DNA of 64,000 bases from Rhizophagus irregularis (Eukaryota > Glomeromycota > Glomeromycetes > Glomerales > Glomeraceae): positions 2,108,001 to 2,172,000 of the forward strand of contig NC_089441.1 of NCBI RefSeq assembly GCF_026210795.1, written 5' to 3'. Of the stretch, positions 11,540 through 56,209 are shown one piece after another. How positions within the stretch are numbered: position 1 is the first letter of the stretch; each line of letters opens with the position of its first letter. Under the pieces are notes generated by a model. The model was not told the DNA's origin and did no database searches. It saw only the letters and a program-made list of their open reading frames with translations. The position numbers were made by a program, and so were the translations under genes.

Positions 11540-11861
11540 ACTATTGATTACAATAGATAAAACAAAGAATATCATACTAAATAATAATAAATAAGAAAAT
11601 AAGTAATCAATTAAATTAATCTTAGAATAAAATCAGATATAAATAAAATAATATTAAATGAAATTTCTTACTTTGTCGCAGAGTTTCTTCCTTCGGAATT
11701 TTTTAGACTCGCTGAAACATGTAAAATTCTTCAAAATAATTTTCTGTAAAGTAAAGAATATAAATTTAATGAAATATTAATCATTTACAAATGTCAAAAA
11801 TATTTAATGAACACACTTACGGGTCATTGTAAAAGGTGCGCTTTCATCAATTAAAGACGTA
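11540..11861 (-). pseudogene. 3' fragment of the orphan membrane gene, cut by Tc1-B
   Basis: Minus-strand exon 7 start (11540-11600), intron, a shortened exon 6 (about 11680-11750) and the end of exon 5 (11817-11861, DESAPFTMTR) are recognisable. Exon 6 has lost most of its transmembrane segment. The Tc1-B element sits at the TA within the exon 5 codons for Thr-Ser-Leu. The fragment equals 39970-40242 and, reversed, 59614-60270. Confidence 0.75.
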
Positions 11862-12985
11862 CAGTGTTGGACAAAAAAAATGAGAATCAAAACATCGGTC
11901 ACTCAATTCACTCAATTATTATAATAAATCACGTGAATTTTTTTTTTATTTAAAGATTAAAAAAAAATTAATATGACCCATTTTTTCCATTTCATTGACT
12001 TTGAAAGATTGATTAGAACGGTATTTGGTATATTTTGTCATTCCTCCGCCATAAATTTCTCCAGATCATCAAGATTTCTTGGCATCCCTTATTCTTAATA
12101 ATTCACCATAAGTTTTCAATGGGGCTTAAGTCGGGGCTATTGGATGGCCACTCTAAAACTACCGAAAATTTTCTTTGAAGAAGGCCTTTGCAAGACGACT
12201 TGTATGAGTGCTTGGGATCGTTGTCCTGTGCGCCAACGATCACCAAGCATCAGGAGCATGTCTACGAAGAATTTCCACATAAAATTCAGCATTCATGATT
12301 TGCGTGAAACAAAATAAGATTGTTTTCCCCTTCGCCCACGCCATAATTTTTGTATGATCTTTAGGCATACGCCGAACCGGCCTCTCTCCTTTATACCAAC
12401 GTTATACAGTATTCCTAAAAAGCTGGAATGCTGCTTCATCTGTAAACACAGTTTTATTCCATCGGTCACTAATATGTTGTCGTGTCCATTATACCCGTTT
12501 TATTTTGTGTGCTTCAGTCAGCATTGGTGTTGCTTTGGGTAGTCTTTTTAAATAGCCAACTCCTAAAAGGCGCCTTCCAACAGTTCTATATGATGCCTCT
12601 ACACCTATATTTTGTAATTTTCTCGCTAAAGTCCTTGTGGAAAGGGAAGTATCACGGCTAATACACGGGAGCCGCTTGCGGTAATCTTTTTAGGTCAACC
12701 ATTCCCTCCAGCATGCTCTAACGCATTTTTTTTATTTTTTCGATGTTTCTATAAATTGTGGATAGAACGTTCGTAAGCTTGTGTAGTTTTTTTAGTATCA
12801 TGTATACCGTTATTCCACAATCTTAATAGAGTTTCGTCGTAAGTTTTCGTCATTGCGCAAGATTTTATGTGGGAGCCTGGCAGGTGTTGGTAAACACAAA
12901 GGTTGTCAAACGTAGCCACAAACGTTATTTATTATGTATTGAGGTAGTACAAAAACAATCCGCTATAGTAATATAGTTTTCTCAT
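11862..12985 (-). mobile_element. Tc1/mariner element type B, left-arm copy
   Basis: The TIR at the low-coordinate end is CAGTGTTGGACAAAAAAAA after a TA (11860-11861); the far TIR near 12985 is worn down. The minus-strand remnant includes FTDEAAFQLFRNT and PVRRMPKDHTKIMAWG-like segments (12300-12480) and the downstream D34E region at 12030-12180, all with shifts. It is paired with copies at 40243-41368 and 58495-59613. Confidence 0.85.
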
Positions 12986-13189
12986 TTGGAAATTTAATTG
13001 GCATAATTATTAATTGGGAAATGATCATCGATCAAAATTTTTTTCACTAAAATTTAATAAAAACAATCGCACACTAATATTAGTTGACAGTAAAATTTGA
13101 GATTTTACTGATTTTACTGTTAATAATAAATACACCTCTATTGGCTTTGTATAGTTTATATTTGCAAATATTTTTTATTATTAAAACAA

Positions 13190-14990
13190 CTATAACATAA
13201 TGAAGCTATAATTTATACAAATGGATTTATGTATTTATATTATTTCGCTTAATAAAGAGTAATACATTAACAGTTGAGGCTTTAATCTATTCCTTTAAGA
13301 GATCTACTTCGGGAAGAGCCTGTGGTGTTTTTATTTCATCCAAATAGTAAGAATGTTCTTCATAAATTGAAATTTGAGACCGAGAGAAACCAAAAACACG
13401 GGATGCAAAAGTTTTGCATTTTTGATTAACTTGAAAATGAGTATTTGTATTTGTTTCTTTCAAAGACTCTTCTTCTTCTTTGTATTCAGATCATAAAAGT
13501 GATGTTGTTTTTTCATCCCATGCATTTGTTTAGATCTTGGATCCAATACACTTGCCAAAATAGTTGCGTTAGGTGGTTATCAAGATAGTCATAAAGCGCA
13601 TTATAAATTTCTTCTTTAATTTTATTAATAATAGCCGTAATATCGATTTGTTCATCTATTGAATTAATAGAATCTATGAACTTTCGCATCATCATCATCT
13701 GTTAAAACAAAATTTTATATTAATAAATGATAATATAATTTAAAATTAAAATAATAATTAAATATTACCATTTTATTATCAAATTCATCACTATCTTCAT
13801 CACTATTTTCATCATCATTATTCTCATTATCACAGTTTTCATCATTATTCTTATTGTCATCGTTTTCTGTTGCGTAAGAATATTTCAGAGCTTGAATAGT
13901 AGGATAAATTAATGATACGTGCAATACTTTTGACCACCCAAAAATTTTCAATTGGTTTGAACAACTCAATTAATTTATCTAATAAATTCCTTAACATTAG
14001 TTCCTGCAGCTGTCTATCATACTCTATAGTCTTTTTTACTCCGATAATCACTTTAATACTTAAATTAACTAAAGCGCGTCTAATTGCAGGTTTCAATTCC
14101 CTTAATCTCTTCGTCATGAAGCTAATGCAAATCCCAATCTTGTTGACACTTCCAGTAATTGTTCGTAAAATATGTGGTTGGCGTTCTTCTGGCATTTCAT
14201 TTGATTATTATCTTGATTTGATTTTGTAAATCACGTTGCGCAAGTTTTGCATTTAATTCAGCTTGTGCTTCTTCCAATTTTTCATTTTGTTCAACGTAAT
14301 CTGTTGTTTTTTTTAAACCTTTGATTACACATAACTGCAGAGTGTGTGCTGAACAAGGTATGCGTTATATACCTTCCCATTCTTGGATTGCTTTTACCAT
14401 ATTACAACCATTATCGGTAAGTAATCTTATTAATTAACTTGAGTTCTTTAACTATAATAGTTTCGTATATGACTACCAGTATGTGGATATTTTATTGGTT
14501 CTATACATAATGGAATATCCTTTAATTCCATTTGATCTGTAGCACATGATGTCCATAAATCCGTTGTTATTGAAGCAGTATCACACATAGAATTTAGCAT
14601 ACTTTTCATTAATTTATTTGCCGTTTGATATCCGAGACCCTAATCTTATTTAAATGTTTGATAACATGGTGGTTGAAATTGGGGATTGACTTTTTTCATC
14701 ATTCTTCTAAAACCATTTCTATTTATTGAAAGGTATTCCATCCGTTACCATCCAATCGCAAACTGAATTCCTTAATTCTTTTTGTTTAGGTTCTTTGTAA
14801 GGTATCACTTTTAAATTCATCATCAATTTTAAGTTGCTCCTATAATATATACAGTATATAATTAATATTATTTTCTTTAAATATATAAAAAATTTTTGTA
14901 GTTATACATATCGCTTTTTTTTCATAAACTTTATGAGTTGTATTCAAATGATAGTATTTCAGACCACTAGTTTCTGCAGCTTCGGACGAG
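13190..14990 (-). mobile_element. hAT transposase relic, left arm
   Basis: Minus strand. From the high-coordinate end: VVWNYYHLNTTHKVYEKK-like start; TTDLWTS (near 14560); a DNGCNMV motif (near 14400); the IREERQPHILRTIT helix region (14060-14200); an Asp/Asn-rich linker (13790-13870); an intron; then ILASVLDPRSKQMHGW-like sequence (13520-13580). The conserved C-terminal dimerisation motif (SVPS..LFSDAGN) seen at 58160-58210 is deleted here between about 13300 and 13310. The element is dead. No convincing 8 bp duplication was found. Confidence 0.82.
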
Positions 14991-15091
14991 TTTCACTTCC
15001 AGAAAAAATTGGCAAAATCTAAAAAAAAAAACGAAAAATGAATTGTTAGTAAAATTCATTAAAATCGTCAAAGAAAAAAAAACGAAATTAC

Positions 15092-15220
15092 TTTATCAAA
15101 ATCTCATAACCCAAAACCACCTAAAATTAGAAAGAAAACGAGCTGTTAATCGTTCGTTAAATAAGAGCAATTAAAAAAAATAAACCAACCAAAATTTCAC
15201 ACAAGAGCAGAAAGAACAAC
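15092..15220 (-). other. pair of exon-like micro-cassettes 5' of hAT, left arm
   Basis: Two minus-strand units with splice-like edges: 15190-15220 (31 nt, acceptor TTTTTAG, donor GTTGGT) and 15092-15120 (29 nt, acceptor AATTTTAG, donor GTAATT). They are conserved in the right arm at 56210-56242 and 56313-56341. Conservation of both edges while the surrounding T-runs drift suggests that the splice sites mattered. Confidence 0.5.
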
Positions 15221-15244
15221 CTAAAAAAAAAATAAAAAATAGTC

Positions 15245-16200
15245 TACAAATGTAAGAATTTTTTTAATAGAAAGTATGAGAAGTGTTATAAAAAAAAACA
15301 ATTTTATTAATTTCATTTACGTAGTTGATGTGAATTTTAGGCTAATCAGATACAAAACACCAAAGAATATCAAAATGAAAATCTCAAAGAATAGTTGTGC
15401 TAGTCTATTGCCTGCTTTACGAAAAATAAATAAATAAATAACCTCAAAGAATAGTTATTTTAAATGCGTAACATATTGGTTATGTACGTTGAAAAATATT
15501 GTTTCATGTTTTTAATTAACGTAATTATTTTATTTTATTGTGTTTGTTTTGGTTATTTGCACGAATTCTTGTTATGAATAACTTACCAGAACCAAAACAT
15601 TCTGCATTTTTATTAATTCTAAAATATTTTTTCGTCCAATCAAAATAAATTACATTATGATAAAGAAAAAAAGGATCCATTACAGTATTTGAATAAGTAA
15701 ATAATTAAAGGAAAAAAAAAACAACAATTTCGCTAATACGAAATCTAACGCATATTATACATATTATTATTAAAAATTTTTTTCTCTTTTATAGTAGTAT
15801 GCATAATAATTTTATTTAATGTTTCTTCAAGTTGACTCATTTTACACTTCTATGATAATTTGGAAATGGATTATTATAACGTTTTCCTTTAGTAGTTGCT
15901 GTTCTCTTGCGTAATAATTGAGTGAGATTGGTTAGTTCCACGGAATGAGGTTGGTATGTTTCTGGCTACCATACTAAAGAATTTAAAGCTCTGCGTTTCG
16001 TAGCGAATTCAACCGGAGAATCGGAGATAAAATTCACAAGTAAAACAGCAAAGACTAAAGTACAATCCAAGAAATTCGTACCATTTTATTTATAAAAGCA
16101 AATTTTATGAAAGAAAAAAATCCAAGTTTTATTTTTCCAGTTTCGTAAAAAAAGAAAGAAAGGAAAGGAGGTAGGGGGCTAAACTAAGATAAAGGAATTA
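15245..16200. other. left-arm spacer
   Basis: This is non-coding sequence paired with 54000-55250 on the other arm. It contains a TAAATAAATAAATAA run near 15427. It represents the empty site for three right-arm insertions (54240-54716, 54791-54945, about 55262-56014), which are absent here. Confidence 0.6.
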
Positions 16201-16229
16201 AGAGTAAAAATGAAAGGCGATGTTCCGCA

Positions 16230-16243
16230 GTGATGATCATCAC
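16230..16243. promoter_or_regulatory. perfect 14 bp palindrome in the gene 5' region
   Basis: GTGATGATCATCAC is self-complementary and is kept exactly in the right arm at 53969-53982, with a variant near 4184 in copy 1. It lies about 1.9 kb upstream of the start codon. It may be a dimeric regulator site; this rests only on symmetry and conservation. Confidence 0.3.
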
Positions 16244-17953
16244 AATTAGGGCGAAATTTCAGACACAATTATTAATTAACACTCCTCCCTAGTTTTTGGC
16301 AGTGGTGATCGTCACCTCCGATGTTATTTAGATTTTAGTCATGGACTAACATCTGACCCCGACCAAATGGCTAAAGGCTATGCGCCAATTACACAAGTCA
16401 CAGCGTTAAGAGAATAATTTTCTCCTCTCCACTTTTTCTTTATCCTCATTTTCATATTCTTTTTTCTCATTTTCATTTTCCTTCACAAGTTTGGAACATG
16501 AAAGCGATATATAGATGATGATGGATTTACATATTGTACTAATTGTAGTATATAGTATACTCTATATTTATTGCAGTTCATCAATTTTAATTATTAATAT
16601 TTAATACTGTAAATATTTTAAATACTACTAGTAGTCTTTTTGGACAGTAATAATAAAGTAATAGGAATAAATATAATTATTTTAATTTTTAATAGTAATA
16701 GAATAATTAACTATTATTCATAATTATAACTTAGTTAAATAGAAATACTAATTAAACTAACTTTGTAAAACGTAATTTCTGAAAAACCCCGTGAATATGA
16801 TACATTTATGAGAAAATAATTTAACTTGGATCATTTTCATGTTTGAGGCTATAAACTCCGTGAATTTGATACATTTACGGAAATAACATGGAATAAAAAA
16901 ACACGGAATAAATTTTTCACTGTATCTCTAGTAAATTATAGATTACCCCGTATAAGTTAATTTTGAGTTTTGTATTGTAACGAATGTAACGTGTAGTATG
17001 TCTCCGTAATTTATTAAGGATTGTTATCTTAAAATAGATCGGCTTTCACCGGTGATCATGACAATTAAACAATAGGAATGTCTCAATGTTAAAAATTTTA
17101 ATTTAATTATGTTGTGTTACCTTGCTCTCTATCATTGTTTTACGCTAAATTAAGACGTAAACTTTTATGAATATCCTTCCATTCCCTTGCAATGGTTTCA
17201 TATCTCTAGGTACAATACGGTAGATGAGGAATAATATGTCAGCAAATTGGCTTATTGCGCCATTTTGCATCCAATAATCATAGAATGATGAAACATAGTT
17301 GTAATATACCAAAATGTCAAATTTCTGCAAGCAGTGATATCATAATTTTATCACTAAATTATGATAAATTTTAATAAATTTAAAAAATTTAATATTTATT
17401 TCCAGAATATTATTGTGTGAATAATTTACCATATCTTTAAGTTCATTGATCACAGTGCTTCAGTTATATGATTTAATTGCTTCCAGTTTATTTGTACAAG
17501 GTAATTGACGGTTTACTAATTCCTTGGTACCAAACGCATGTGCATTATACCAAATACTAGGTTCTGAATTACTTTCAAAGTGTGTAGATGTAAACAATTA
17601 ATTTTCCATTTAAATTACTAATTAATTATTAATAGACTAGTTCAAATTACTATAACATACTTTTTACGGTTTTTATTGTTCAAAATTAGCGTATTATATT
17701 AATGAAAGCTTTTGTAAAAAATTCTTTGCGAATGAAAAAAAACAAAGACCGCATGTGTTTATTTATCACCACGTTTTTTACATATGTGAATAAGGCAATG
17801 CAGATCAGTTTTTGAAATACAAATTTGGTAGTATAATAATAGAAATGCTTGAAATTGTATTACAATAATAATTGAAACACGTTTGATAAAAAGAAAAGTT
17901 ATTAATAGTTAATTTAATAGTTAATAAATAAATCAAATTATAATAGCGAGAAA

Positions 17954-17964
17954 TATATATAAAT
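17954..17964 (+). promoter_or_regulatory. TATA-like box of gene copy 2
   Basis: TATATATAAAT followed by GTTCTGT is found at the same place ahead of all four gene copies that keep a 5' region (5887, 36194 and, reversed, 52039-52049). It lies about 130-155 bp before the start codon. Confidence 0.5.
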
Positions 17965-17986
17965 GTTCTGTTCTGTAATTCCCAAA

Positions 17987-18119
17987 GTAAAAAATTTACC
18001 ATTTTTCAAGTCTTTTAGTAAAAAAAACTTACCATTTTTCAAGTCTCTTAGTAAAAACTTACCATTTTTCAAGTCTCTTAGTAAAAAAATTTACCATTTT
18101 TTAAAGTCATTTAGTAAAA
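17987..18119 (+). repeat. tandem leader repeat, four units
   Basis: Four roughly 29-36 bp units of the form TTACCATTTTTCAAGTCTC plus TTAGTAAAAA lie directly before the start codon of copy 2. The right-arm copy has three units (51912-52014); copies at 5917 and 36225 have one. In one frame the repeat reads as a repeated NLPFFKSLSK decapeptide opening from an ATG at 17963, out of frame with the main product in this copy. Confidence 0.75.
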
Positions 18120-21100
18120 ATGTTCAATTTAAAGGTGTTGATCACTTTTATCTGTTTAATATCCATCGTCTCATCCGTCTCATCTCAATATATATCATCA
18201 CGAAATATATTATCTCAAAATGCATCTTCCCAAGATATATCACCCCAAGATATATCATTTATTTACAAAGAACCAATTGATGGTCTTAAACTTTATACTA
18301 CTTTACTCACTCATGATTATTTGATGATTTGGATGGCCTTTGAGGATGAAGATCCTGAATGCATGTTACCTTATTTCCATTTACGAATAATAAATAAAAT
18401 AACAGGACAAACCAATTATATAGACCTTAATTATACTCTTCCTGCGGAAGCAGTTTGCCCCATTAATATTGATTTTTTGCCTGTAGCTAATAATTATATT
18501 TTGTTGTATTATGCTAAAACAACAAATGGTATTAAGGGAAAACATGGAATGATAATTAATTACAGCGGTGAGATTATGAGGTAAGCTTAAATGATGGAAC
18601 ATCTTCATTTATGAAGGTTAATTATAATGACTCAATAATAATTCTTCTTTTTAGCGAAATATATTTAGGAAATGCTGACGGATATGTTGCATTATCAAAT
18701 GAAGGGTTTATTAATATTGAAAAGCCAGACGAAAAAGGAATATCAGCATGGCATTGGTATAGCTCTCCGTAAGTATTTTTATTAATAAATAATTTCTTTT
18801 GAAAATATTTGTCGATTAACTTGCTTTTCATCTTATTTTAGAAATATTGAAACAGGAGAAGTGGTGGAACATAATAGTGGCGAATTTCATGTACCAAATC
18901 TACCATCGTATACCTTAGTAGATAGTTTAAATTTTAATTTATTGGATGGAGGTTTTGGTTTCCTGTATATTTTAAAATATGATGAAACGAAAGGATCACC
19001 AGTAACAAAAGATCCAAATCTTCAATACTGGAGAATTTACGTGTCATTTCTAAAAGTGAAAACAGATTTACCTACAAAACCCTCTCTACTTTACGAAACT
19101 ACTCAGAAATTAAATAATATAACACTTAAATCATGTACTCTGACTTATTATCATGCTGAAGGATATATATGTGTTATGACATTAAATAACACGATTACGA
19201 ATAATAATAATTCATAAACCGAGATAAATTATTATCAGTTGGGATTTTTATCAACTGGGGCCCTAATACGATTGGAGATAATTCCTACTCTAACAAATAT
19301 TCCAAACTTTGATTTGAGAGCTTTATATTATGGAGGATTTATTGTGATTTACCAAAATGCAACTGCTATTGATTTTTATCTTTTGGATGATAATGGAAAT
19401 GATATGCAATCACGGGGATCCTTCGGGCCAGAGTTCTTTCATTATAATACATTTCGGTTGATTAATACTATTTTTGGAGTAAAAGAACAGGCCAAAAATA
19501 AATTAGAATTTTTATTCAAACCTTTACCAAAATTAAAACAGGGTAAGCTTTTAATCTCTTTTCTTTCTTGTTTACATATATATATACAGTATAATAATTT
19601 TTTTTATCTGTAGTTTCTGAATTTAATCCTGCAATTGAGTCAGTCAAGCCATCTATAAATGAAGTTATTGATCCTTTGATCAAAGAAATTACAATCAAAT
19701 ATACCATTCCAGTGAAGTTATTTACTGGGAATGTTTCAATATTTCAATTAAATGATGATAAATATAAACCGGGCCTATTACGTCAAACATTTTCGGGAGA
19801 TTCTAAATTATGTAACATTGGAAGTGATAACCGCACAGTACATATTCCAATTTTTGAAAGCACATTCAACCAACAGAATTCTACCTACTATGTGCTTGTT
19901 GAAAATAATTTTGTCATCTCTCAAGAAAGAGATGAACCTTTAATTGGAATTAGAAAGAATATTTGGACACTTTCAACAAGTAATTTACATATTTTTTTTT
20001 TTAATTTTTTAATGATCGAATAGAAAAATTTATATTCTGTTACTATATTTAGAACCACTTAAAACGGCACAGCACTCAGATTCAGTTACAGGATTATTAC
20101 GATTAAACGAGGAAGGAAGTTCAAAATTTTTCCAAATGAATCATTCAATATTTTTCAAGAATATGATTCAAGAATTTGCTAAAGTAATTCCAGTAACTGA
20201 ACAGAGGCTATCAGCAAGTGGTAAATGGCAATATGACCCTACTTCCCCAAAAAAAGTATTATTGTCATTTAACATAATTGAAGCTAAAGATCATACAATC
20301 GAACTAAACTCCCAAATAATATTTGATGATATAAGTACTTTGATCAAAAAAAAGGGGTTTACTGCACTTTCATTCAATGAATATACATCTTTAATTGATG
20401 AAAGTGCCCCTTTTACAATGACCCGTAAGTGTGTTTATTAAATATTTTTGACATTTGTTATTTGTAAATGATTAATATTTCATTAAATTTTAATTCTATT
20501 ACTATACAGGAGATTATATCAATGAATTTTATCCATTGATCATCATATTTGTAGTAGGTTTGGCTGTAATAATAGTATTATATGTTTTGGCTCGTAGAAA
20601 AAATCCCAATGCAAGAAACTCTGTGATAATTGAGACCTGTTTTATAATGCAAGATATTGCCATGGATCTAGCATTCATATTATTAAAGGTTAAAAATACA
20701 CCACATCTATTTATTCCAACGTAAGAAATCTCATTTAATATTATTTTATTTATATTATTTTAAAGATTAATTTAATTGATTACTAATTTTCTTATTTGTT
20801 ATTATTTAGTATTATATTCTTTATTTTACCTATTGTAATCAATTTTTTATTAGCCATAAATATTTTTGTATCTGAAATGGCAATGAATCCATCGTTCAAT
20901 AAATGGGTTAAGGAGTCTCCGACATTATCATCAATGTGCACATTATTTTCAGCCATTGATATACAAATATTAAACACTTTATCGTCGGATTTATTTGGCC
21001 TTAGAATATTTTCAGCTCCTTTGACTCAAAGATCAAAAAAAATAATGCTTTGGGGTGTTATCATAAACATTTTTGTTGAAGATATACCTCAAATCATTAT

Positions 21101-21300
21101 CCAAGGTCTATATTACAATAGTGTCATAACATATGATCTTATTCCATCTCTCATCTGGTGGATTAGTTATAGCAAATAAATTAGTTCTAAGATCATATCA
21201 CGCGTTATTAAGATGGAATCATCGACGCGATAAAATTAGAGAATATAATAGAAATCGACGTTTATCTGCTGCTTCTATAAGATCCATAAGGTCGAATTAA
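18120..21300 (+). pseudogene. orphan membrane-protein gene, copy 2 (left arm), two lesions
   Basis: Seven exons can be placed by GT-AG edges and by the intact copy: 18120-18580, 18655-18768, 18842-19542, 19614-19979, 20053-20424, 20510-20720, 20810-21300. The start follows the leader repeats and opens with a signal peptide (MFNLKVLITFICLISIVSS). Lesions: a Trp codon of the intact copy is TAA at 19215-19217 in exon 3, and an 8 bp deletion near 21150 shifts exon 7. All splice sites remain good, so the loss of function is recent compared with copies 1, 4 and 5. A shortened product ending in exon 3 is possible but would lack all C-terminal membrane helices. Confidence 0.85.
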
Positions 21301-22785
21301 AGCAGAGAAAAAGATCTTGCCGAATATTTTTATTTATAAAAAATTTTATTGGACGAAAAAATATGTAATACTATTAATTTAATAAAATACTTTAGACTGC
21401 GCCATCTGCGTCATAAAAATTGGTTTTTTTTTCGTTTCTCAAAAAAAATTTTTTTTTTTTTGGAGCATCTCAATTCAACAATTAATGTTTTTCTTTTTGG
21501 ACAATAAGAGTCATATTGTGTACTGACAATAACAAATTCCAATTTGAAATTGAAATTTTGACTTGGGAGTTTTAACTCACGTAATCGCGTGTGGGTTACA
21601 ATATTTTAAAAATGCCTAGGTTACGTGTTCGGATGTGATGTAGAAAATCGTGGTTCAAAAATGACCGTTCATAATCGTTATTTTTCCGTGACGGATAAAT
21701 TAAAGTGGAGTGTCAATTCGAAAATGAACATGATCATAAGTATAATATGTATCCTTCTTGGGAGACAACGTTTGCATTGACCTGTCAGACAACTGAAAAA
21801 TTAAATAGCAACCTAGTTAGTGACATCATTGTGACTAATTTTATATACTGTATTTTTATCAAATAATGTTATTTTCGAAACTTTTTTTTATCGAGACTTG
21901 AATTATTGATTTATTTGGATTAATTCTATTTAATAAATATTGCAATATAAATTTTCATACAATCTTGATTTTTAATAGCCTTCACGAGAAATTTTATGAT
22001 CTCATCATAAACATAGTATTAATTAGAAGATTTGGCAAGTTTGATTTTAATCGTTTAGCGTAAAGAATATTAACTCTCAAAACCATAATTATTAGTTACG
22101 GTTATTACGGTTAGCTTCTGAAGGCTAAATTTTGTTACGATAGGAATTGATTAATTATCAAGCGGAAGATTGGAAGTTTAAACGTCAAATATTCAAATAT
22201 CATTAGCCTTTAAACAAAAAAAGCTCGCACATTCAAATTATTGTTTGAAAAAAAATGTAATACTGTGATATCTAATTGGAATTTGAAATTTTTTCCGATT
22301 AGAACATGGCAGTGTTTTATATTGAATTACTTAGATCCTTTAATAGTATGTCATTAAATTACTTTTTTTATTAGTTGTTTAATAATTTATATAACTGAAT
22401 AATATTTATATTTTGTTGTCTATTGTCTACTATTAGCTGCACACTTGCCTTATCATCTGGATTAGCTAAAAAACAACGCCGCTATAAACAATTAATATAC
22501 TTCAAAATGTTATTTAATCTCTTACTTTTGAATTCGTCATATCTAGTATATATATACTATGTCGTCAAGCTTTTTATATGACGAAAAAATTGATATTAAG
22601 AATAAGTTATTAAATAGCGACATAAAAAAATTCTGGAAAAACTCCTATAAATGATCATTTTCTAGTTTTTATTCCGAAAAAAATGTGATATAAATTTATC
22701 GGACGTAGGATATCGACAACACTTTACATAGTAACCTTTCTCTAGCTTATTTACTTTCGTTTATTACCATTCCCTGATCCAACGA
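21301..22785. other. 3' spacer of gene copy 2
   Basis: Non-coding sequence paired in reverse with 46605-48726. It is the empty site for the right-arm insert 47051-47209 (near 22300-22320) and lacks the extra block at 48030-48473. A T-rich run near 21450 may be the gene's 3' processing region. Confidence 0.6.
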
Positions 22786-24303: not shown

Positions 24304-25754
24304 ATGTCAAAGCAAAAAGAATACTCAGTTTCACTTATTTCTGCAGGAGAACTTATAGACAACTTGCATTATGGACCATATGCTAGAGAATGGCGGTTAG
24401 CTCGCCTGTCTGACGCCTGACTAATAATAATATACCTTTTTATACTGTATATCCAATTCGTCTTGGTTTATGTAATAACGTATGTAATAGTTCATCACAG
24501 CGATTACTTCAGTATGTCAAAAAGCCTTTTCTAATAAAACAAAACATGCAGGGCCTTTGGTTATGGGATTTGACATTCCGCATATATCTGAAACATTACT
24601 TTCAGATGTACATTTTCGTCCCTTTGCTTTTTAAGGCAGAGAATTTGAATATAATGGTTTTTAGTATTGGTGATCAAAAAATCTTGATTGGAATTATGCG
24701 GGTGAAGGGTATAAAAGTTCTTTTATACATGATTATAACCATTCTCGATCATTATTTTTTCAAGAATTGACGATGATTAAGCAATTGTTAGAATTTATAA
24801 AGAATTTCAAGAAATATGTAACAAAATTTAAAGGAAACACCCTCTTTGGACTTGGAACATAATGAAATAAATTAGTAATTGATCGAGAAAAAATTCCCTA
24901 TTGTACGACCGATGACTGGAAAAATGAAGAAATTACTATGAATAAAATTTTCCAATTGAAAAAACGTGTTTTAACGTCTATTAATTGGAAAAATCTTTTT
25001 ATTGAATGGCAAATCAAAAAAGTAGTATTATTGAATTAACACAAAAACTAAAAGAAATATATCCAGTTGGTTATATTATCAAAGATCATGAATTTCGGGC
25101 GTGGAAAGCTTTATTGCGTCATGCTGGTTGTATTAAGATAACCCCTTTTGAAAAAGAAGATTCAGAGGTAACTAATTAAAAATTCAATTTTATTTACATA
25201 ATTTTAAACTGAAAAATTTTTTTAGCTTCAATTTTGGACGCGGTCAAAAGATCCAGATAAAGACAAAGATACACTAATTCAATTGTATAATTGTCGATTT
25301 CTTCAAACAAATCCTGAAAAACCATACAAAGCAATTTTGGAATGCATTTCAAGATGCATTAGATAGCAATATTCGTGGAATTGATGGTAAAAGAAGAATA
25401 TTATCTATTATTGCCGATACATTTTCATATGAATGATAAAACGAAATTTATCAGTTAGTATCAAAATTTACAAAATTATAAAAAAAAAATCTAATAAATT
25501 TATATAATACCCGTAATTATTAGGTCCAGGAGGTGTTCAAATGGAAAAACTGAAAATTACTCCTCAAACGACTATCACCTTAAAAAAAAGATCAAATTGA
25601 AATTTTTTTCAGAATAAAGCAAACGTTATAATGAGTTCTTACAAAACCAGACAGTGCCAGTGGATTACCTGTATATTATCCAAAAAATACCAAAAAGATT
25701 TTGTGGGAACGGTTCCATGAAAAATATCCTGATGAACTTAAAAGAAGCCAACTA
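24304..25754 (+). pseudogene. unknown-family pseudogene, 5' part
   Basis: Shifted-frame coding pieces on the plus strand: MSKQKEYSVSLISAGELIDN at 24304; GPLVMGFDIPHISETLLSD near 24555; YPVGYIIKDHEFRAWKALL near 25060; an intron ending TTTTTTTAG near 25225; LQFWTRSKDPDKDKDTLIQL at 25226; RGIDGKRRILSIIADTFSYE near 25375; KANVIMSSYKT near 25617; LPVYYPKNTKKILWERFHEK near 25670. These segments look like a large orphan family I associate with Rhizophagus genomes; its function is unknown to me. The gene is interrupted at 25754/29252 by a TIR element. Confidence 0.55.
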
Positions 25755-26272
25755 CTTTGCAGAAACTCGAAATTTTTTAAGGTATCATTAAGCTACCTTA
25801 ATTATACTGTCTATGAATCTTAAAAGTAACGTGACGGTCGAATTTTCTTAGTATATCATCCTAATAATGAAATGACATTTGGATGATATTGATATGGTCA
25901 TGTAACGTTAATTTGCATGACATTTTAACTATACTAGGCAGATATTTTTTACAATATTGTGAAATTGTTAAGAAGACATCTTTTTAGCATATTCACGGTA
26001 TTCTAAATACATTTTTTATAATATACAATTATTTTTTAAAAGATCAAATACTTATGCGTTGCTTATTGTCATACAATTAGAAAAAAATATTTTTTTGCAA
26101 TTATTTATTAATAAATATCAATATAATGCAGCTTTTAATTACAAATACATATTTATTGCATAAAAAATTTTTTTAAAGCGAAATAAATCAGAGCCAGAAA
26201 CACTTCTAGCATGTGACTATCATGTGATTATAGGGTCGATTGTTAGTGGAATCATAAACTTCGTAGCCACGC

Positions 26273-26455
26273 TCAATTAAGGCAATGTATTACTAGACCT
26301 ACACTAAAGATGACTTTAGCAAGGCTTTCTTTGTGATGAATTAAAAGAAATTTCATACACTTTGCCAGCTGGTGGGATAGCTTATGACCTCTAACAAGTC
26401 TGTTTATACTAATAAATCCAGAAGTTTGTACTGCTAATAAAAGTATCCTAAAAAG
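26273..26455 (-). CDS. unrecognised minus-strand exon inside the TIR element
   Basis: After a clean acceptor (TTTCTTTTTAG, complement of about 26456-26466) an open stretch of about 60 codons reads ILLLAVQTSGFISINRLV and continues to SLAKVIFSVGLVIHCLN before a stop at 26275. It is not low-complexity, unlike most frames nearby. It could be the last exon of an element-encoded protein or of a host gene. I find no motif that names it. Confidence 0.35.
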   Translation of the reverse strand, partial: LFRILLLAVQTSGFISINRLVRGHKLSHQLAKCMKFLLIHHKESLAKVIFSVGLVIHCLN

Positions 26456-26555
26456 AAAAAATAAATAAATGAGCAATTAGTATCAATTAAATAAAAAAAA
26501 ATAAATACTTTCATTTTTGTTTATAATCATATGATATAAATTGATATATACCAAC

Positions 26556-26579
26556 CAAATTTTATGCGTCTAGATTCAT
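26556..26579 (-). other. exon-like micro-cassette
   Basis: Minus strand: CTTCTCTTTAG, a 24 nt unit ending GCATAAAATTTG, then GTTGGT. The end resembles the TGCGAAATTTTG/GTTGGT cassette at 56210-56242, so cassettes occur on both strands of this element. Confidence 0.4.
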
Positions 26580-27279
26580 CTAAAGAGAAGGAAAGTGGAA
26601 AGCTACCCGTAGCCAAATATGATATAAATAGATATTTATTTTTAAATAAAATGGGTAAGATAATATAACAACAATACATGGGAGTACAAAACTAAACTAA
26701 ATATTGAACCTACAACTATTTGCTAATTTAGAAATATCAGCCACAACTATTTCTCGTCAATCAGATCATTTTTTATTTCAACTCACAATATAAAATATGG
26801 GCCATTTTCCGATAAAAGATTTATTTTATATTTTTTTTTAGTAGTAAAACGTAATACTTTATTAAAAAAAAATAATAGTAAACTGGAGTTAGAAGAAAAC
26901 CAAAATTTTCATGTACTACATAATACTTTCTGGTTCCTCTATAAACGTTCTTCCATTGAAAAAAAGCTTTTACTAAAATAATAATATTTCTATAGGAGAG
27001 AAAAAAGTTTTTAGATTATAGATAGTTGTAAAAAAGCGTGAAAAAAAAGTTTATATAAATATTATAAGTGGGAAAAAAAGTTTAAATAAATAAGTATTTT
27101 AAATGGGGAAAAAAAAGTCCATATTTTCGGTTATACAAACTTTTTGTAATAAATTAAGTATTACGCGCATCATGTGATTTAATATTAACAATATAACAAT
27201 CACTTTTTTTAAACTTTAGAAAAAGTCTAGTTTAAAAAAAAAGTCTAAACTTTTTCGGCATAAACTTTTTTTTGGTAAA

Positions 27280-27398
27280 CTTTCCTCTCTCATTTTTTCC
27301 CCTTTCCTCTCTTTCATAATTTCCCTTTCCCTCTTTTCATTTTTCCCCTATCTCTCTTTCTCGTACTTCCCTTTCCCTCACTTTTTTTTTTTTTTTAG
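27280..27398 (+). repeat. long polypyrimidine tract before the cassette array
   Basis: About 110 nt of almost pure C and T (CCTTTCCTCTC-type) ends in a T-run and AG at 27397-27398. Similar CT-rich leaders precede the cassettes at 56090-56209 and, on the minus strand, those at 9518-10491. In fungi such tracts often mark promoters or strong acceptors. Confidence 0.5.
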
Positions 27399-28470
27399 AT
27401 GGATGTAAATTTTGATATTTTTTGAATATTTTTGGACAAAGATTTTGGTAAGGAGGAATGTTTTTGGCTTAACTCTTTAATGAAATAATTATTAATATTT
27501 TGTTTCTTTTCTCTTTTAGGCGACTTTTTGGTTCTTTGGACATAGGATTTTGGTGAGTATATTACTTTTTTAAAAAATTTCTTTATTTCGTTTTTTAAAA
27601 TGATTACTAATTTCTTTTTTTTTCTTTTTTTTTTAGACGGCCTGGACATATAGAATCTCAGTGAGAAAATGGCCTTGGTTTTTTCATATTTTTAGACAAG
27701 TCTGGATGCGTAGGATAGGTAAGTTTCGAAAACAGAAATTTGAAACTTTAAAGAAAAGTTTTTAACTTTTTTTTTCACTTTTGTAGGAAATCAGCTCTGA
27801 CTTGGAAACTGAAATCCTAGATAATGGCAAGTTTCAAAAAAAGGAATTCAAAAATTTTTAAAAAAAACTTTTTATCGAAAAAAATTTTTTGTAATTGATT
27901 AAAAAACAGTTTTTATTGACCTTTTTTATTTCTTTTGTAGGACTCTGTCTTCAGAACCCTTGTGAAATTACAGTAATGACTTTTTTTATTTTGTAGTTTT
28001 CCTTTGACTTAATTATCAGAACTCTCAGTATGATAACGGTTTTATATTGTTCAGGTTGTACGAAATTAGTAGGTTGAAGGTAATTTTTGGGAAAAAAATT
28101 CGAAAATGATAAAAAATTTTGATTAACATTTTTTCTTTTTTTTTATAGGACAGATTTCCAATTTACGAATGGGATCGGATGGTGAGTTTCAAAATTTTGA
28201 AATTAAATTATTTCAATATTGAATTTTTTTAAAGGAATATTAATATTTACTTTTCCTCTCTTTTTTATAGGAAATGGATTTCTGGTTCTTGGGTGGATTG
28301 GATGGTAAGTTTAATTTTAGAAACTTTAAAATTTATTTAGCCATTTTTATTAATGAAATGATACCAATATTTTATTTTATTTTTATTTTACAGAAGCCTA
28401 AAGAATTACTACGGTGGTTTCAAAATTTTCCAATTACGTTTATTGATCGGAATCCATGTGTATTCTTTAT
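27399..28470 (+). other. array of ten exon-like micro-cassettes
   Basis: Units with acceptor and donor-like edges: 27399-27447 (donor GTAAGG), 27520-27552 (GTGAGT), 27637-27660 (GTGAGA), 27696-27718 (GTAAGT), 27787-27826 (GCAAGT), 27941-27972 (GTAATG), 27997-28079 (GTAATT), 28149-28191 (GTGAGT), 28271-28304 (GTAAGT) and a last unit from 28394. Lengths are mostly 23-49 nt, spacers 35-113 nt. Several share a core like TTTTGGTTCTTTGGACAT, so they look like diverged repeats of one unit. Joining them gives no obvious domain. A spliced non-coding RNA, a split protein, or decayed tandem repeats are all possible. Confidence 0.55.
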
Positions 28471-28868
28471 TGTATGAATACATGTAATACTGAGCATGAT
28501 GAAGCAAATCAAAGTTAAATTTTAAACAGATATTATTATAATGCAGTATAGATAGAAATATAGTTTATTTATGGCGTTATTATATTACTAACATAATAAA
28601 CATATTTTATTATATTACTTTATTATTCATCAAAAACAGAAATGAAGTTGCCGGTTTACAGGCTTTAACGGCATTTTTAATTCCATACCACAAGAAATTT
28701 GGTCAAGAGTAATTTATTCTTGGTCTTTATTTACCACAAATTATGGTAAAATCAAGTTCGTGAATTTTATTGGAGGAAATCTTGTTTTTCGAAAAAATGA
28801 ATCATTTTGAGATTTTGAGATATTTTCAACGTATTATAATTATTTATATTACTATTACATTATTTTAT

Positions 28869-28980
28869 ATATTGTTGTTATATTATCACTATATGATTGC
28901 TATATAAATCAAGACATATTGTTGTCATATTTTCGTTATATGATTGTTATATAAACCAAGACATATTGTTGTCATATTTG
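28869..28980 (+). repeat. tandem repeat, about 50 bp unit
   Basis: Two full units and a partial third of ATATTGTTGTCATATT...GATTGTTATATAAACCAAGAC lie near the right end of the TIR element. Units differ by a few substitutions. Subterminal repeats of this kind are common in DNA transposons. Confidence 0.65.
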
Positions 28981-29251
28981 TAAGTTTCTGCAAAGTACTA
29001 CTTTAATGTTATTTAACAACATAGTTTAAATAATTTAAATGCACTGTTACGATATTTTTACAATAGTTAAAGTGATGTATCTGCAATACATTTAAAATGA
29101 TTTACCATGCATAGTAACGGACATGGCAGTATATCATAATTTTTTCCATTACTTAATGTTAACTTACTCGTGAATTCAATTGGCACAGTACCGTCCCGAT
29201 TCTAATTAAACATCTTAATGACATTGGATAAAAATTGAAGTTTCTGCAAAG

Positions 29252-29426
29252 TAGTATACTTTATGGATATTTACAAGGAAACCAATATATATATATAAAG
29301 AGGATTTTGGGAGGTCTCTGTTCAATCTGTAACAATACATATGGATATGAATCATTTGATGAGTTTCGAAAATTACTAATACAATGTCTTATTCTAAACT
29401 TGAATTTACAGGTAAATATTAATTGA
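29252..29426 (+). pseudogene. unknown-family pseudogene, 3' part
   Basis: This continues the gene at 24304-25754 after the TIR element: YGYLQGNQYIYIKRI, then GGLCSICNNTYGYESFDEF, with two cysteines spaced CxxC, up to a donor-like GTAAAT at 29411. Joining the two flanks across one TA restores a continuous reading region apart from small shifts. Confidence 0.5.
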
Positions 29427-29757
29427 TTGATGACTTGAAAGTTTGAACTTGTGGAATAATGAAAAAAAGCAATTAATATAAATAGTATTTCATAACTGAA
29501 ACAACTTTTTATTAATTGGATAATTGCTATTGATGCTAGTGTTGATTTAAAATTCTTTCAAGAAACTACTTTTTTTTTTTGTCGCAATAAGTCACGTGAT
29601 CAAATAACACATACATTCGATTAAAAATTTTTTTGTTTAATATTACCTACAAAAAAATACAAATAAAAAAGAAGTTAAACCCAAATAATAAAACAAAAAA
29701 AAATAAAAAGAAAATTTTGAAGTTAATTTATTATATTAAAGAAATAGATCATTATAC

Positions 29758-46607: not shown

Positions 46608-47050
46608 GCATTGGATAGGGAACGGTAAACGAAAGTAAATAAGCTAGAGAAAGGTTACTATGTAAAGTGTTGTCGATATCCTACGCCCGATAAATTTTAT
46701 CACATTTTTTTCGGAATAAAAACTAGAAAATGATCATTTATAAGAGTTTTTCCAGAAATTTTTTTTTGTCGTTATTTAATGGCTTATTCTTAATATCAAT
46801 TTTTTCGTCATATAAAAAAGCTTGACGACATATATACTAGATATACGAATTCAAAAGTAAGAGATTAAATAACATTCCGATAGTATATTATTTGTTTATA
46901 GCGTTGTTTTTTGAGTAAGAACGGCTAATCCAGATGATAAGGCAAGTGTGCAGCTAATAGTAGACAATAGACAACAAAATATAAATATTATTATATAAAT
47001 TAGATATACGGGTTTGAATAAAATTTGCAATTGAATGTTTCCAGATAAAT

Positions 47051-47209
47051 ATCAATATAAAATACTACAGTCAGGAATCGTCGTCTTCGGGCGGCTTGAT
47101 TGTTAGTGATAGAATTACTTTCGACTCATTTGTATGTTGTCCTTGTAATTTTTACTTCAACTTGGTTTTTCTGTAACATAAAAATAAAAAAATCAATATA
47201 AAATACTAC
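47051..47209 (+). mobile_element. 123 bp A-tailed insert with 18 bp target duplication
   Basis: ATCAATATAAAATACTAC occurs at 47051-47068 and 47192-47209. The sequence between starts AGTCAGGAATCGTCGTC and ends AACATAAAAATAAAAAA. The left arm has a single TTCAATATAAAACACTG at the matching place (complement of about 22303-22320). Duplication plus A-rich tail plus empty site point to retroposition. The source could be a small RNA, a SINE, or a heavily truncated LINE or mRNA. The relatively GC-rich start (TCTTCGGGCGGCTTG) stands out from the local composition. Confidence 0.72.
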
Positions 47210-48029
47210 CATATTCTAATCGGAAAAAAAATTTCAAATTCCAATTAGATATAACAGTATTACATTTTTTTTCAAACAATAATTTAAATGTGCGGATAAT
47301 CTTTCATTTTAACCAATCTTCTTGTCAAAAAGTAGTATCATTCGTTTTTTTGTTTAAAGGCTAATGATATTTGAATATTTGGCGTTTAAACTTCCAATCT
47401 TCCGCTTGATAATTAATCAATTCCTATCATAACAAAATTTAGTCTTCAAAAGCTAACCGTAATAACCGTAACTAATAATTATGGTTTTGAGAGTTAATAT
47501 TCTTTACGCTAAACGATTAAAATTAAACTTGCCATAATCTTCTAATTAATATGTTTATAATGAGATCATAAAATTGCTCGTGAAGGCTTTTAAAAATCAA
47601 GATTGTATGAAAATTTATATTGCGATATTTATTAAATAGAATTAATCCAAATAAATCAATAATTCAAGTCTCGATAAAAAAAAGGTTCGAAAATAACATT
47701 ATTTGATAATAATCTGATAAAAATACAGTATATAAAATTAGTCACAATGATGTCACACTAACTAGACGACTTAGGTTGCTATTTAATTTTTCAGTTGACT
47801 GTCAGGTCAATGCAAGCATTGTTTCCCAGAAGGATACATATTATACTTATGATCATGATCCTTTTCGAATTGACACTCCACTTTAATTTATCCGTCACGG
47901 AGAAATAACGATTATGAACGGTCATTATTGAACCACGATTTTTCTTATTGCAATATTTTAAAATAACCAACACGCGACTAGGTTTGAGTTAAAACTCCCA
48001 AGTCAAAATTTCAATTTCAAATTGGAATT

Positions 48030-48473
48030 TTTGAAATGTTATCATATCCCAAACCAAATTTGGAAATTAAAATAGACGTTTGGAGACATATTTAGGATCG
48101 AAGAGTGTTTGATTATCGTCGGTCTTGAACTTATGGCTTAAATTTACCAGATGGATGGAAAATCGCAAATTAAATTCGGAGTTGGGTTACAACAGCATCA
48201 TTTAGGTTTGTAAGGCTGAAGGAGACCCTTGTTTGATTCTTTATATAAAATTATATACGTATATACGCAGATTAAAAATGGAAAGAGAAGAAAGGAAGAG
48301 GCGTGTTGTACAAATTGAAATAAATGCAAAATAGTATAACAATAAATTTTCATAATCAAAATTTTTTTATTTCTTTTAAAATACTATAATCAAATTCAAT
48401 AAAACTCGGGCACACTGGTTACATTATGTTTCATGTGCGTAATAAATTTCATGTATAAGATACTATTCAGTTA
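48030..48473. other. extra block in right arm, class unknown
   Basis: The left arm joins GGAATTT directly to GTTATTG (complement near 21530). Here about 445 bp lies between them. It contains ordinary-composition sequence (GGCTGAAGGAGACCCTTG) and an A/T-rich end, but I find no TIR, poly(A) or target duplication. It could equally be a deletion from the left arm. Confidence 0.45.
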
Positions 48474-48726
48474 TTGTTAGTACACAATATGACTCTTATT
48501 GTCCAAAAGAAAAACATTTATTGTTGACATTTGAGGAATTGAGAGTCAGAATGATGCTCCAAAAAAGAAAAAAAAATTTTTTTGAGAAACGAAAAAAAAG
48601 AATAGAATTTTTATGGCGCAGATGGCGCAGTCTAAAGTATTTTATTAAATTAATAGTATTACATATTTTTTCGTCCAATAAAATTTTTTATAAATAAAAA
48701 TATTCAGCAAGATCTTTTTCTCTGCT

Positions 48727-51700
48727 TTAATTCGACCTTATGGATCTTATAGAAGCAGCAGATAAACGTCGATTTCTATTATATTCTCTAATTTTATCGC
48801 GTTGATGATTCCACCTTAATAACGCGTGATATGACCTTAGAATTAATTTATTTGCTATAACTAATCCACCAGATGCAAGCACAAGAGATGGAATAAGATC
48901 ATATGTTATGACACTATTGTAATATAGACCTTGGATAATGATTTGAGGTATATCTTCAACAAAAATGTTTATGATAACACCCCAAAGCATTATTTTTTTT
49001 GATCTTTGAGTCAAAGGAGCTGAAAATATTCTAAGGCCAAATAAATCCGACGATAAAGTGTTTAATATTTGTATATCAATGGCTGAAAATAGTGTGCCCA
49101 TTGATGATAATGTCGGAGACTCCTTAACCCATTTATTGAATGATGGATTCATTGCCATTTCAGATACAAAAATATTTATGGCTAATAAAAAATTGATTAC
49201 AATAGGTAAAATAAAGAATATAATACTAAATAATAACAAATAAGAAAATCAGTAATCAATTAAATTAATCTTTAAAACAATATAAAAATAATATTAAATG
49301 AGATTTCTTACGTTGGAATAAATAGATGTGGTGTATTTTTAACCTTTAATAATATAAATGCTAGATCCACGGCAATATCTTGCATTATAAAAAAGGTCTC
49401 AATTATCACAGAGTTTCTTGCATTGGGATTTTTTCTACGAGCCAAAACATATAATACTATTATTACAGCCAAACCTACTACAAATATAATGATCAAAGGA
49501 TAAAATTCATTGATATAATCTCCTGTAAAGTAATAGAATTAAAATTTAATGAAATATTAATCATTTACAAATAACAAATGTCAAAATATTTAATGAACAC
49601 ACTTACGGATCATTGTAAAAGGGGCACTTTCATCAATTAAAGATGTATATTCATTGAATGAAAGTGCAGTAAACCTTTTTTTGTTTATCAATGTACTTAT
49701 ATCATTGAATATAATTTGGGAGTTTGATTCTATTGTATTATCTTTAGCTTCAATTATGTTAAATGACAATAATACTTTTCTTGGGGAAGTAGGGTCATAT
49801 TGCCATTTACCACTTGTTGACAACCTCTGTTCAGTTACTGGGATTACTTTAGCAAATTCTTGAATCATATTCTTGAAAAATATTGAATGATTCATTTGGA
49901 GAAATTTTGAACTTCCTTCCTCGTTTAATCGAAGTAATCCTGTAACTGAATCTGAGTGTTGTGCCATTTTAAGTGGTTCTAAATATAGTAACAGAATATA
50001 AATTTTTCTATTCAATCATTAAAAAATTAAAATTAAAAAAAAATATGTATATTACTTGTTGAAAGTGTCCAAATATTCTTTCTAATTCCAATTAAAGGTT
50101 CATCTCTCTCTTGAGAGATGACAAAATTATTTCCAACAAGCACATAGTAGGTAGAATTCTGTTGGCTGAATGTGCTTTCAAAAATTGGAATATGTACTGT
50201 GTGGTTATCACTTCCAATGGTACATAATTTAGAATCTCCCGAAAATGTTTGTCTTAATAGGCCTGGTTTATATTTATCATCATTTAATTGAAATATTGAG
50301 ACATTCCCAGTAGATAACTTCACTGGAATGGTATATTTGATCGTAATTTCTTTGATCAAAGGATCAATAACTTCATTTATAGATGGCTTGGCTGACTCAA
50401 TTACAGGACTAAATTCAGAACCTACAGATAAAAAAAAATTATTATACTGTATATGATATATATGTAAATAAGAAAGAAAAGAGATTAAAAGCTTACCCTT
50501 TTTTAATTTTGGTAAAGGTTTGAATAAAAATTCCAATTTGTTTTTGGCCTGTTCCTTTACTCCAAAAATAGTACTAATTGTCCGATATGTATTATAAAAA
50601 AAAAACTCTGGCCCGAAAGATCCCTGTGATTGCATATAATTTCCATTATCATCCAAAAGATAAAAATCAATAGCAGATGCATTTTGGTAAATCACAATAA
50701 ATCCTCCATAATATAAAGCTCTCAAATCAATGTCTGTAATATTTGTTGGAGTAGGAATTATCTCCAATCGTACTAAGGCCCCAGTTGATAAAAATCCCAA
50801 CTGATAATAATTTATCTCAGTCCATGATTTATTATTATTTGTAATCGTGTTATTTAATGTCATAACACATATATATCCTTCAGCATTATAAGTTAAAGTA
50901 CATAATCTAAGTGTTATATTATTTAATTTCTGAGTAGTTTCGTAAAGTAGGGAGGGTTTTGTAGGTAAATCTGTTTTCACTTTTAAAAATGACACGTAAA
51001 TTCTCCAGTATTGAACATTTGGATCTTTTATTACCGATGATCCTTTTGTTTCATCATATTTTAAAATATACAGGAAACCAAAACCTCCATCCACTAAATC
51101 AAAATTTAAACTATCTACTAAGGTATATGATGGTAGATTTGGCGCATGAAATTCACCACTACTATGTTCCACCACTTCTCCTGTTTCAATATTTCTAAAA
51201 TAAGATGAAAAGCAAGTTAATCGACAAATATTTTCAAAAAAAAAAATTGTTTATTCATAAATACTTACGGAGAACTATACCAATGCCATGCAGATATTCC
51301 TTTTTCGTCTGGCTTTTCAATATTAATAAACCCTTCATTTGATAATGCAACATATCCGTCAGCATTTCCTAAATATATTTCGCTAAAAAGAAGAATTATT
51401 ATTGAGTCATTATAATTAACCTTCATAAATGAAGATGTTCCATCATTTAAGCTTACCTCATAACCTCACCGCTGTAATTAATTATCATTCCATGTTTTCC
51501 CTTAATACCATTTGTTGTTTTAGCATAATACAACAAAATATAATTATCAGCTACAGGTAAAAAATCAATATTATTAATGGGGCAAACTGCTTCCGCAGGA
51601 AGAGTATAATTAAGGTCTATATAATTGGTTTGTCCTGTTATCTTATTTATTATTCGTAAATGGAAATAAGGTAACATGCATTCTGGATCTTCATCTTCAA

Positions 51701-51911
51701 AGGCCATCCAAATCATCAAATGATTATAAGTGGGTAAAAGAGTTACAAATTTAAGACCATCGATTGGTTCTTCGTAAATGAATGATATATCTTGGGGTGA
51801 TATATCATGGAGGGATCCATTTTGCGATAAAATATCTCTTGATAATATGTTTTGTGATGAGACGACGGATATTAAACAGATAAAAGTGATCAACACCTTT
51901 AAATTGAACAT
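48727..51911 (-). CDS. orphan secreted/multi-pass membrane protein, intact copy 3
   Basis: Exons (minus): 51457-51911, 51269-51382, 50497-51194, 50056-50421, 49607-49978, 49312-49522, 48727-49225. Six GT-AG introns of 74-86 nt; the phases agree and give 904 codons plus TAA. The start follows three leader repeats and begins with a signal peptide (MFNLKVLITFICLISVVSS). Residues about 20-670 form a large domain with several N-glycosylation sequons, placed outside the cell or in the lumen. From about 677 there are roughly five hydrophobic helices (LIIIFVVGLAVIIVLYVLA; IIFFILPIVINFLLAINIFV; a helix with EDIPQIIIQGLYY; LIPSLVLASGGLVIANKLIL), then a basic tail. The EDIPQIIIQ motif loosely recalls the E-PQL-LQ helix of XK-type membrane proteins; that is only a resemblance. 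The function is unknown to me. Four broken relatives lie in this window. The 5' region with a TATA-like box at 52039-52049 is shared with copy 2. Confidence 0.85.
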
Positions 51912-54724: not shown

Positions 54725-54790
54725 AAGTATTACGGTATTTTTTTGTTTTGAGATTTTTTAATAATTTTTAAAATTTTTATTTAGTATGGT

Positions 54791-56014: not shown

Positions 56015-56209
56015 TTTTTGATAAGCAAATATACTATCACGTGAACCACGTGATAATCACTGATTTAAGCCTACTTTAACTTTTTAAATTTTTCTTTGCC
56101 CCTTTAATAAAATTCGTATCTTTCCTTTCACCTCTCTCCTTTCTCACTTATCATACTTTCTATTAAAAAAAATCCTTACATTTATAGACTATTTTTTATT
56201 TTTTTTTAG

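Follow-up and report, generated by a model that had tools for sequence, protein, structure and literature searches.

Series of very short exons are described for the micro-exon genes (MEGs) of schistosomes, in which they form regular rows with long introns and encode secreted proteins (PMC10526429, in the part of the text available). Introners are many similar introns with a link to DNA transposons, and transposons with terminal inverted repeats (TIRs) can act as introners according to the accessible part of PMC9860276. For arbuscular mycorrhizal fungi, the available excerpt of PMC11333574 described SP7-like effectors as repeat-bearing genes with a conserved intron before the first repeat; it mentions no microexon array and the likeness is one of description alone. 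Plavaka transposons, which are reported to be particularly prevalent in six Rhizophagus irregularis strains (PMC11075540, part available), include families with 2-bp or 2-3 bp duplications and termini of TGT..ACA (A) or CATCA..TGATG (B) (PMC12730594, part available). Here, a 64,000-nucleotide stretch of R. irregularis (contig NC_089441.1, C13:2108001-2172000; the window) was analysed, in which a 3497-bp transposon at 25755-29251 carries a row of microexon-like units (cassettes) bounded by splice signals. As in the MEGs the row of very short exons is regular, but the introns are only approximately 70-85 nt, the units are tandem duplicates and comparison of copies reveals no coding constraint on the exons. 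The many similar introns and the DNA transposon link recall introners, but the array exons are homologous too and one TIR pair surrounds the whole array. The best explanation, with a probability of roughly 60%, is that these arrays are transposon-borne transcription units which would be spliced and are now non-coding, perhaps once coding.

The element, its array and the retention of splice signals

The ends of the window element were CTTTGCAGAAAC in inverted orientation with CTTTGC..GCAAAG as termini, and a 42-nt inverted pair (25751-25792 and 29214-29255) was 79% complementary. A search of the genome (146.7 Mb in 32 contigs) placed matches at 10 sites for the left end (146 bp) and at 10 for the right end (156 bp). 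A near-full copy on C8 (L001) occupied another insertion site with 98.5% identity to the window element over 3534 columns, while a near-full copy on C13b (L002) was without the left part. An earlier note, made from the letters of the window, had claimed a DNA transposon group with inverted ends and proposed a genome search with the terminal sequence; the search was run and confirmed a multi-copy family with the same ends and 2-bp duplications.

Between 27397 and 28393 the element had nine acceptors and eight donors (seven GT and one GC). The earlier note had counted ten cassettes; the array is real, but the number was not upheld. Each unit consisted of an exon and an intron with GTAAGT, a TTACTAAC-like motif and poly-T-AG. 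Seven exons were clean and short (23-49 nt), one block was ambiguous and the last exon had no defined end. A strict scanner (pyrimidine tract, AG, 18-60 nt, donor, spacing of 40-160 nt) found a single chain of at least three cassettes on both strands of the 64 kb, namely four cassettes at 27399-27826. Shuffling produced no such chain, either on the two strands of the window (10 Markov-1 shuffles) or on the + strand of 27280-28420 (500 shuffles). Alignment of 19 units from five sources (A1) showed the same order of exon, GTAAGT, A-rich stretch, TTACTAAC-like motif, T-tract and AG with a mean column identity of 59%. The donor G, the fifth-base G and the TA of the branch-point-like motif were invariant, and the exons between the introns were homologous to one another.

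With the window sites as reference, one locus per subfamily (L015, L018, L020 and L021) and poorly aligned sites dropped, acceptor AG and donor GT were kept in 47 of 53 cases in the transposon family compared to 170 of 240 for other AG and GT (P 0.009, by a Fisher test that treats related copies and neighbouring sites as independent, as does the one below). Over all eight loci, which are not independent, the counts were 100/111 and 361/507. A second set of five comparisons, among L025/L003/L006, L029, L030 and L035-L039, gave 57/82 against 254/534 (P 2e-4). Such better retention of the splice signals is expected for RNA that is spliced now or was spliced formerly.

The exon bodies were not conserved above the introns and codon positions were unbiased, which showed that there is no coding constraint between copies. 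Exon and intron identities in the transposon family were 0.838/0.875, 0.860/0.850, 0.874/0.875 and 0.678/0.696, respectively. Comparison of L036 with five loci produced 0.833 for exons and 0.876 for introns, with 0.830, 0.831 and 0.837 at the three codon positions.

Target duplications, interrupted genes and a coding relative

Target duplications were counted in the 13 elements for which the fetched DNA covered both ends. Elements with one end only or worn ends (L002, L006-L013, L016-L018, L020 and L034) were not counted, nor was a 264-bp pair in L028 (CTTTACAG ends). An exact 2-bp duplication was present in 11 of the 13 elements: TA in three (the window copy W, L003 and L004), TT or AA in six (L001, L005, L019, L021, L027 and a coding element on C13, the last with TT), GA in L025 and AC in L033. 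The flanking pairs of L015 and L026 did not match. The TA duplication claimed earlier does flank 25755-29251 on both sides, but since eight of the 11 duplications are other than TA, it is the site of the window copy and no general rule of the family. In Tc1/mariner transposons the TA duplication is obligate, and these eight duplications differ from that pattern.

In 11 elements (W and L015 outside), the flanks were joined either with one 2-bp copy removed together with the element or with both copies kept, and the open frame across the join was compared. The frame was longer with one copy removed in nine elements, and the gain was at least 17 aa in seven: L005 (200 compared to 177 aa), L021 (336/292), L019 (193/137), L025 (260/142), L033 (229/132), the C13 coding element (306/289) and L027 (71/49). 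Gains were smaller for L003 (62/49, 13 aa) and L001 (43/36, 7 aa), while L004 (69/76) and L026 (241/374) showed the opposite direction. For the window copy, pseudogene halves on either side had been proposed in the earlier note. A paralogue of the flanking gene on C26 (L041) is continuous through the site without the element and has ACTA once, but is 8 bp shorter at the insertion point than the joined window flanks. A second paralogue (L042) was interrupted close by, by other sequence.

No open reading frame (ORF) of at least 100 aa was found in the scanned stretch of the window element. L005, whose left end is like that of the window element (89% over 742 columns), carries a degenerate coding stretch, and a genome search with this stretch led to the C13 coding element, a coding relative of 7921 bp (C13:607054-614974) with similar ends. 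A C18 copy was 99% identical to its right 5.5 kb and had the same right terminus. The coding relative aligned with the window element at the ends only, and its frames matched the degenerate remnants in L005. One frame, with a CRSC (CxxC) motif, had a similarity of 25.6% over 164 columns to a Plavaka locus, L013 (E 7e-8). Pfam search of eight frames of the coding relative gave no significant match, and PF18759 was unlisted at E up to 5, where HMMER filters drop most weak matches.

Overall, the 2-bp target duplications, the CxxC motif and the distant similarity of the coding-relative ORF to a PF18759-positive locus are shared with Plavaka (CMC/CMCT clade). Unlike Plavaka, the element family carries the cassette array and its coding-relative ORFs do not match PF18759 itself, and the termini are CTTTGC..GCAAAG instead of those given for types A and B in the available part of PMC12730594. 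Because the termini differ from the published ones, the group was named Plavaka-related and not Plavaka. As one part of the whole best explanation, the window element is probably a non-autonomous DNA transposon of this lineage.

L013 was considered as the autonomous partner and rejected. A clear Plavaka transposase adjoins the same right end there, but comparison with L022-L024 showed that it belongs to a separate element, which terminates near TGATG and abuts a 32-bp remnant of a CTTTGC-type end. L013 (1-5253) and L022-L024 are abundant, similar Plavaka elements which are probably young, and a 203-aa open frame recurs in many of the 123 PF18759 matches.

Distribution of the arrays and adjoining features

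Arrays were searched with R1, a sequence-only model of the aligned units, at a match threshold of E up to 0.01. At least one R1 match was found in 12 of the 13 paired elements (W, L001, L003, L004, L015, L019, L021, L025, L026, L027, L033 and the coding element, which had five matches with E 7e-8 to 9e-3). L005 had no match at the threshold (best E 0.05). L019 and L021 had one match each, and there the array call rests mainly on alignment with 25900-28569 of the window (72%). In eight examined loci (L029-L031 and L035-L039) an array was present with no enclosing pair of these ends in the fetched stretch, and in one of them, L035, 2 kb contained 13 R1 matches. Arrays of this kind also exist outside the transposon group. 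Overall, 93 loci on 28 contigs had a full or partial match to one of three arrays, counted as hits of three DNA searches merged to the nearest kb. As 40 candidates were scored per search out of 170, 67 and 157, some loci were missed, and some matches were short, with C13:1733k and C26:3244k covering the last exon only. Elsewhere in the window, two R1 matches each were located at 15023-15213 (-) and 56231-56409 (+).

An E-box-like octamer was found upstream of 13 of 18 arrays compared to 18 of 184 background 600-bp bins; the upstream stretch searched was 217-768 bp, mostly 600 bp, and several of the arrays are related. In the window family, a CT-rich tract lies between this site and the first acceptor. 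Within the element, a core of approximately 150 nt was almost invariant in 13 sequences and was predicted to form an imperfect long hairpin. Identity to seven other elements was 0.78-1.00 per 60-bp bin at 26235-26534 (for L015, the first four of five bins), and 0.60-0.68 in the bin just before 26235 in four aligning elements of other subfamilies. The stretch 26199-26252 was matched at 85-87% in 11 other places. The core was present in the array-less L005 and had no alignment in the coding relative. Against Rfam, 25500-29500 remained without a match up to an E of 1 and L021 1000-1600 had two hits only, at E 8.1 and E 9; no tRNA was found. The core was rejected as a structured RNA (z of -1.0 to -1.8; no double-sided change in any of 43 predicted pairs) and as a coding sequence (its 36 variable columns fell in every codon position, and each of the six frames of L021 contained stops). 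The features of the element and its flanks are listed in Table 1.

Table 1. Annotated features of the window element and its flanks, in window positions
Feature	Position	Strand	Remark
Left half of interrupted flanking gene or pseudogene	25220..25752	+	
Left copy of 2-bp target duplication (TA)	25753..25754	.	C26 paralogue: ACTA once
Left terminal inverted repeat CTTTGCAGAAAC...	25755..25792	+	
Paired CATGTGA/TCATGTGA motif directly before core	26210..26233	+	by eye
Near-invariant core block	26249..26410	.	common to subfamilies with neighbouring DNA ~60% alike
E-box-like TCATGTGA upstream of array	27170..27177	+	
CT-rich tract, promoter-like	27280..27396	+	
Cassette exon 1	27399..27447	+	49 nt, donor GTAAGG
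Cassette exon 2	27520..27552	+	33 nt, donor GTGAGT
Cassette exon 3	27637..27660	+	24 nt, donor GTGAGA
Cassette exon 4	27696..27718	+	23 nt, donor GTAAGT
Cassette exon 5	27787..27826	+	40 nt, GC donor GCAAGT
Ambiguous block	27941..28079	+	a single long exon or several short ones, donor GTAATT
Cassette exon 7	28149..28182	+	34 nt, donor GTGAGT
Cassette exon 8	28271..28304	+	34 nt, donor GTAAGT
Terminal-exon candidate behind last acceptor	28394..28475	+	end undefined
Extra internal copy of right-end motif	28982..29000	-	
Right terminal inverted repeat	29214..29251	-	
Right copy of 2-bp target duplication (TA)	29252..29253	.	
Right half of interrupted flanking gene or pseudogene	29254..29520	+	

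Around the element region, the window has a large inverted duplication (11722-22782 and 46611-59755, approximately 84-91% identical in blocks) with cassette matches on both sides. Its arms hold tandem repeats of 32-33 bp at 17989-18120 and 51911-52010, one per strand, with GGTAAGT in the unit. In both copies, just 3' of the cassette array, a degenerate frame with ITTDLWTS was found at 14570 (-) and 56854 (+), which we take to be hAT-like. ORF 57039-57458, the only one near the 56.8-kb frame that was searched, had no match in Pfam. In other loci, L028 has a miniature inverted-repeat transposable element (MITE)-like 264-bp pair of CTTTACAGAAAC ends at 2432-2695, with AT on both sides, which adjoins a cassette array, and L030 has an AAA-ATPase-like fragment at 587-832 (-) (PF09820, E 5e-6) between cassette stretches. 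L036 carries a cassette array without CTTTGC ends; L043, L044 and L045 were 94.7-96.8% identical to it over 2 kb, which indicates another repeat family.

Explanations of the arrays

Under the preferred explanation, of spliced and now non-coding transcription units borne by a transposon, the element was probably mobilised by a transposase resembling the one in the 7.9-kb coding relative, which has similar ends and a 2-bp duplication. The element would hold its own RNA polymerase II-type transcription unit made up of the E-box-like site, a CT-rich start region and the microexon-intron row, in which each unit would supply donor, branch-point-like motif, pyrimidine tract and acceptor. Duplication of the exon-intron unit would have enlarged the row. 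The RNA would most likely be spliced to a short product that is non-coding, possibly derived from a heavily split gene that was coding at one time, with selection acting on splicing and not on exon sequence. We infer transcription, splicing, use of the relative's transposase and any function from the DNA. The earlier note had proposed a split gene or a spliced non-coding RNA as the cargo; retention of the splice signals above control AG and GT is in line with either of the two.

Several observations weigh against this explanation. Both Fisher tests assume independence, the two largest comparisons of the second set differed little (L036 23/36 against 110/203; L025 11/18 against 60/108) and most of the 57/82 effect came from L037-L039. 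The 47/53 count excludes the GC donor at 27827, where four of eight other loci (L014, L015, L017 and L020) have AT; with it, the count would be 49/57. Splice sites were lost in single copies at 27518 and 27635 (L019/L021) and at 27719 (L016/L018), which indicates that at least some arrays are decaying. Five of the 18 arrays had no E-box-like site. The array of the coding relative is situated past the minus-strand frames and is oriented opposite to that of the window relative to the ends, so that the data do not establish descent of the family's arrays from a common one. Finally, exon lengths in arrays outside the transposon (L029, L030 and L035-L039) were divisible by three in 27 of 35 cases (33 nt in 12, 36 nt in eight and 24 nt in four), which makes a coding ancestor plausible and leaves these lengths unexplained by a purely non-coding origin.

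Array introns mostly outside the window element (A3 columns 152-194) also showed a covarying 8-bp inverted repeat, AAYGARYA / TRYTCRTT, with TTACTAAC as loop around the branch point. The stem was 82% paired compared to 30-57% in slid controls, with 63 double-changed cells compared to 36.4 +/- 6.1 in shuffles; pairs with double changes were 5 compared to 4.8 and pair types 15 compared to 13.6. G-U mismatches were not preferred over A-C (57 and 58), mismatches had no strand bias and the stem was absent from the introns of the window element itself, results which count on the same side as the points above. The hairpin was dropped as RNA evidence on account of the equal G-U and A-C mismatches and of its absence from those introns.

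The exon lengths speak for reading the arrays as decaying copies of a protein-coding microexon gene family, with an 11-12 aa repeat per microexon as in the schistosome genes, an explanation that was considered unlikely although it survives best among the rivals. Phase 0 was open in 25 of those 35 exons from seven loci compared to 17.8 +/- 2.9 in mononucleotide-shuffled sequence, and the other frames in 19 and 16. However, the lengths are inherited within tandem families and so are not independent, and when 12 loci, some with the ends and some lacking them, were scanned less strictly, false cassettes included, 24 of 82 exon lengths were divisible by three. A 36-nt exon bearing TGA recurs in L029, L036 and L039, the frame from the ATG in exon 1 of the window element hits TGA at codon 9, and exons were neither more conserved than introns nor favoured at any codon position.

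A reading of the arrays as multi-intron 5' leaders, detached from transposon genes and serving expression or export of the transposase RNA, appeared more doubtful. The array at 56231-56409 does lie 5' of a degenerate transposase-like frame, likewise in the inverted duplicate (14.5-15.2 kb), the last exon of L003 resembles by eye the exon after the 56231-56409 array, and the E-box-like site is often upstream of arrays. On the other hand, the array of the coding relative leads into neither gene but follows the minus-strand frames towards the element end. Pfam search of frames downstream of a few arrays showed the AAA-ATPase fragment in L030 and nothing in L028, and the 56.8-kb frame, near which the Pfam-negative ORF lies, is presumed to be hAT-like.

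A satellite-like repeat, in which a T-rich unit was duplicated in tandem and bears splice-like motifs by chance with no splicing, was judged improbable. The units are indeed tandem and homologous, some nearly identical (approximately 109-bp spacing in L028), but donor, branch-point-like motif, pyrimidine tract and acceptor occur in the right order and spacing at a mean column identity of 59% among the units, and splice dinucleotides were kept above control dinucleotides. Introners, with every intron a separately inserted element, are hardly credible despite the many similar introns and the TIR transposons among them (PMC9860276, part available), as the TIRs enclose the whole array instead of single introns, and the pieces between the introns are homologous exons, which unit duplication explains, where mobile introns would separate unrelated ones.

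A wider proposal beyond the spliced non-coding units is made tentatively, with the odds somewhat against it. The arrays may form an undescribed class of mobile tandem microexon-intron arrays, in which splice signals are kept while exons drift and serial splicing would be the selected function, spread partly in a Plavaka-related lineage whose array members mostly keep the core. A full-text search of one literature collection found no paper on tandem microexons and introns in a TIR transposon, and the search for R. irregularis microexons in the same collection gave one unrelated paper. If the arrays are transcribed and spliced, serial splicing would be conserved without conserved exons, which would bear on why introns persist in transposons and on how microexon genes arise. 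Their many loci and copies would provide a natural experiment on splice-site constraint, and the near-invariant core points to a possible second function in the same transposons.

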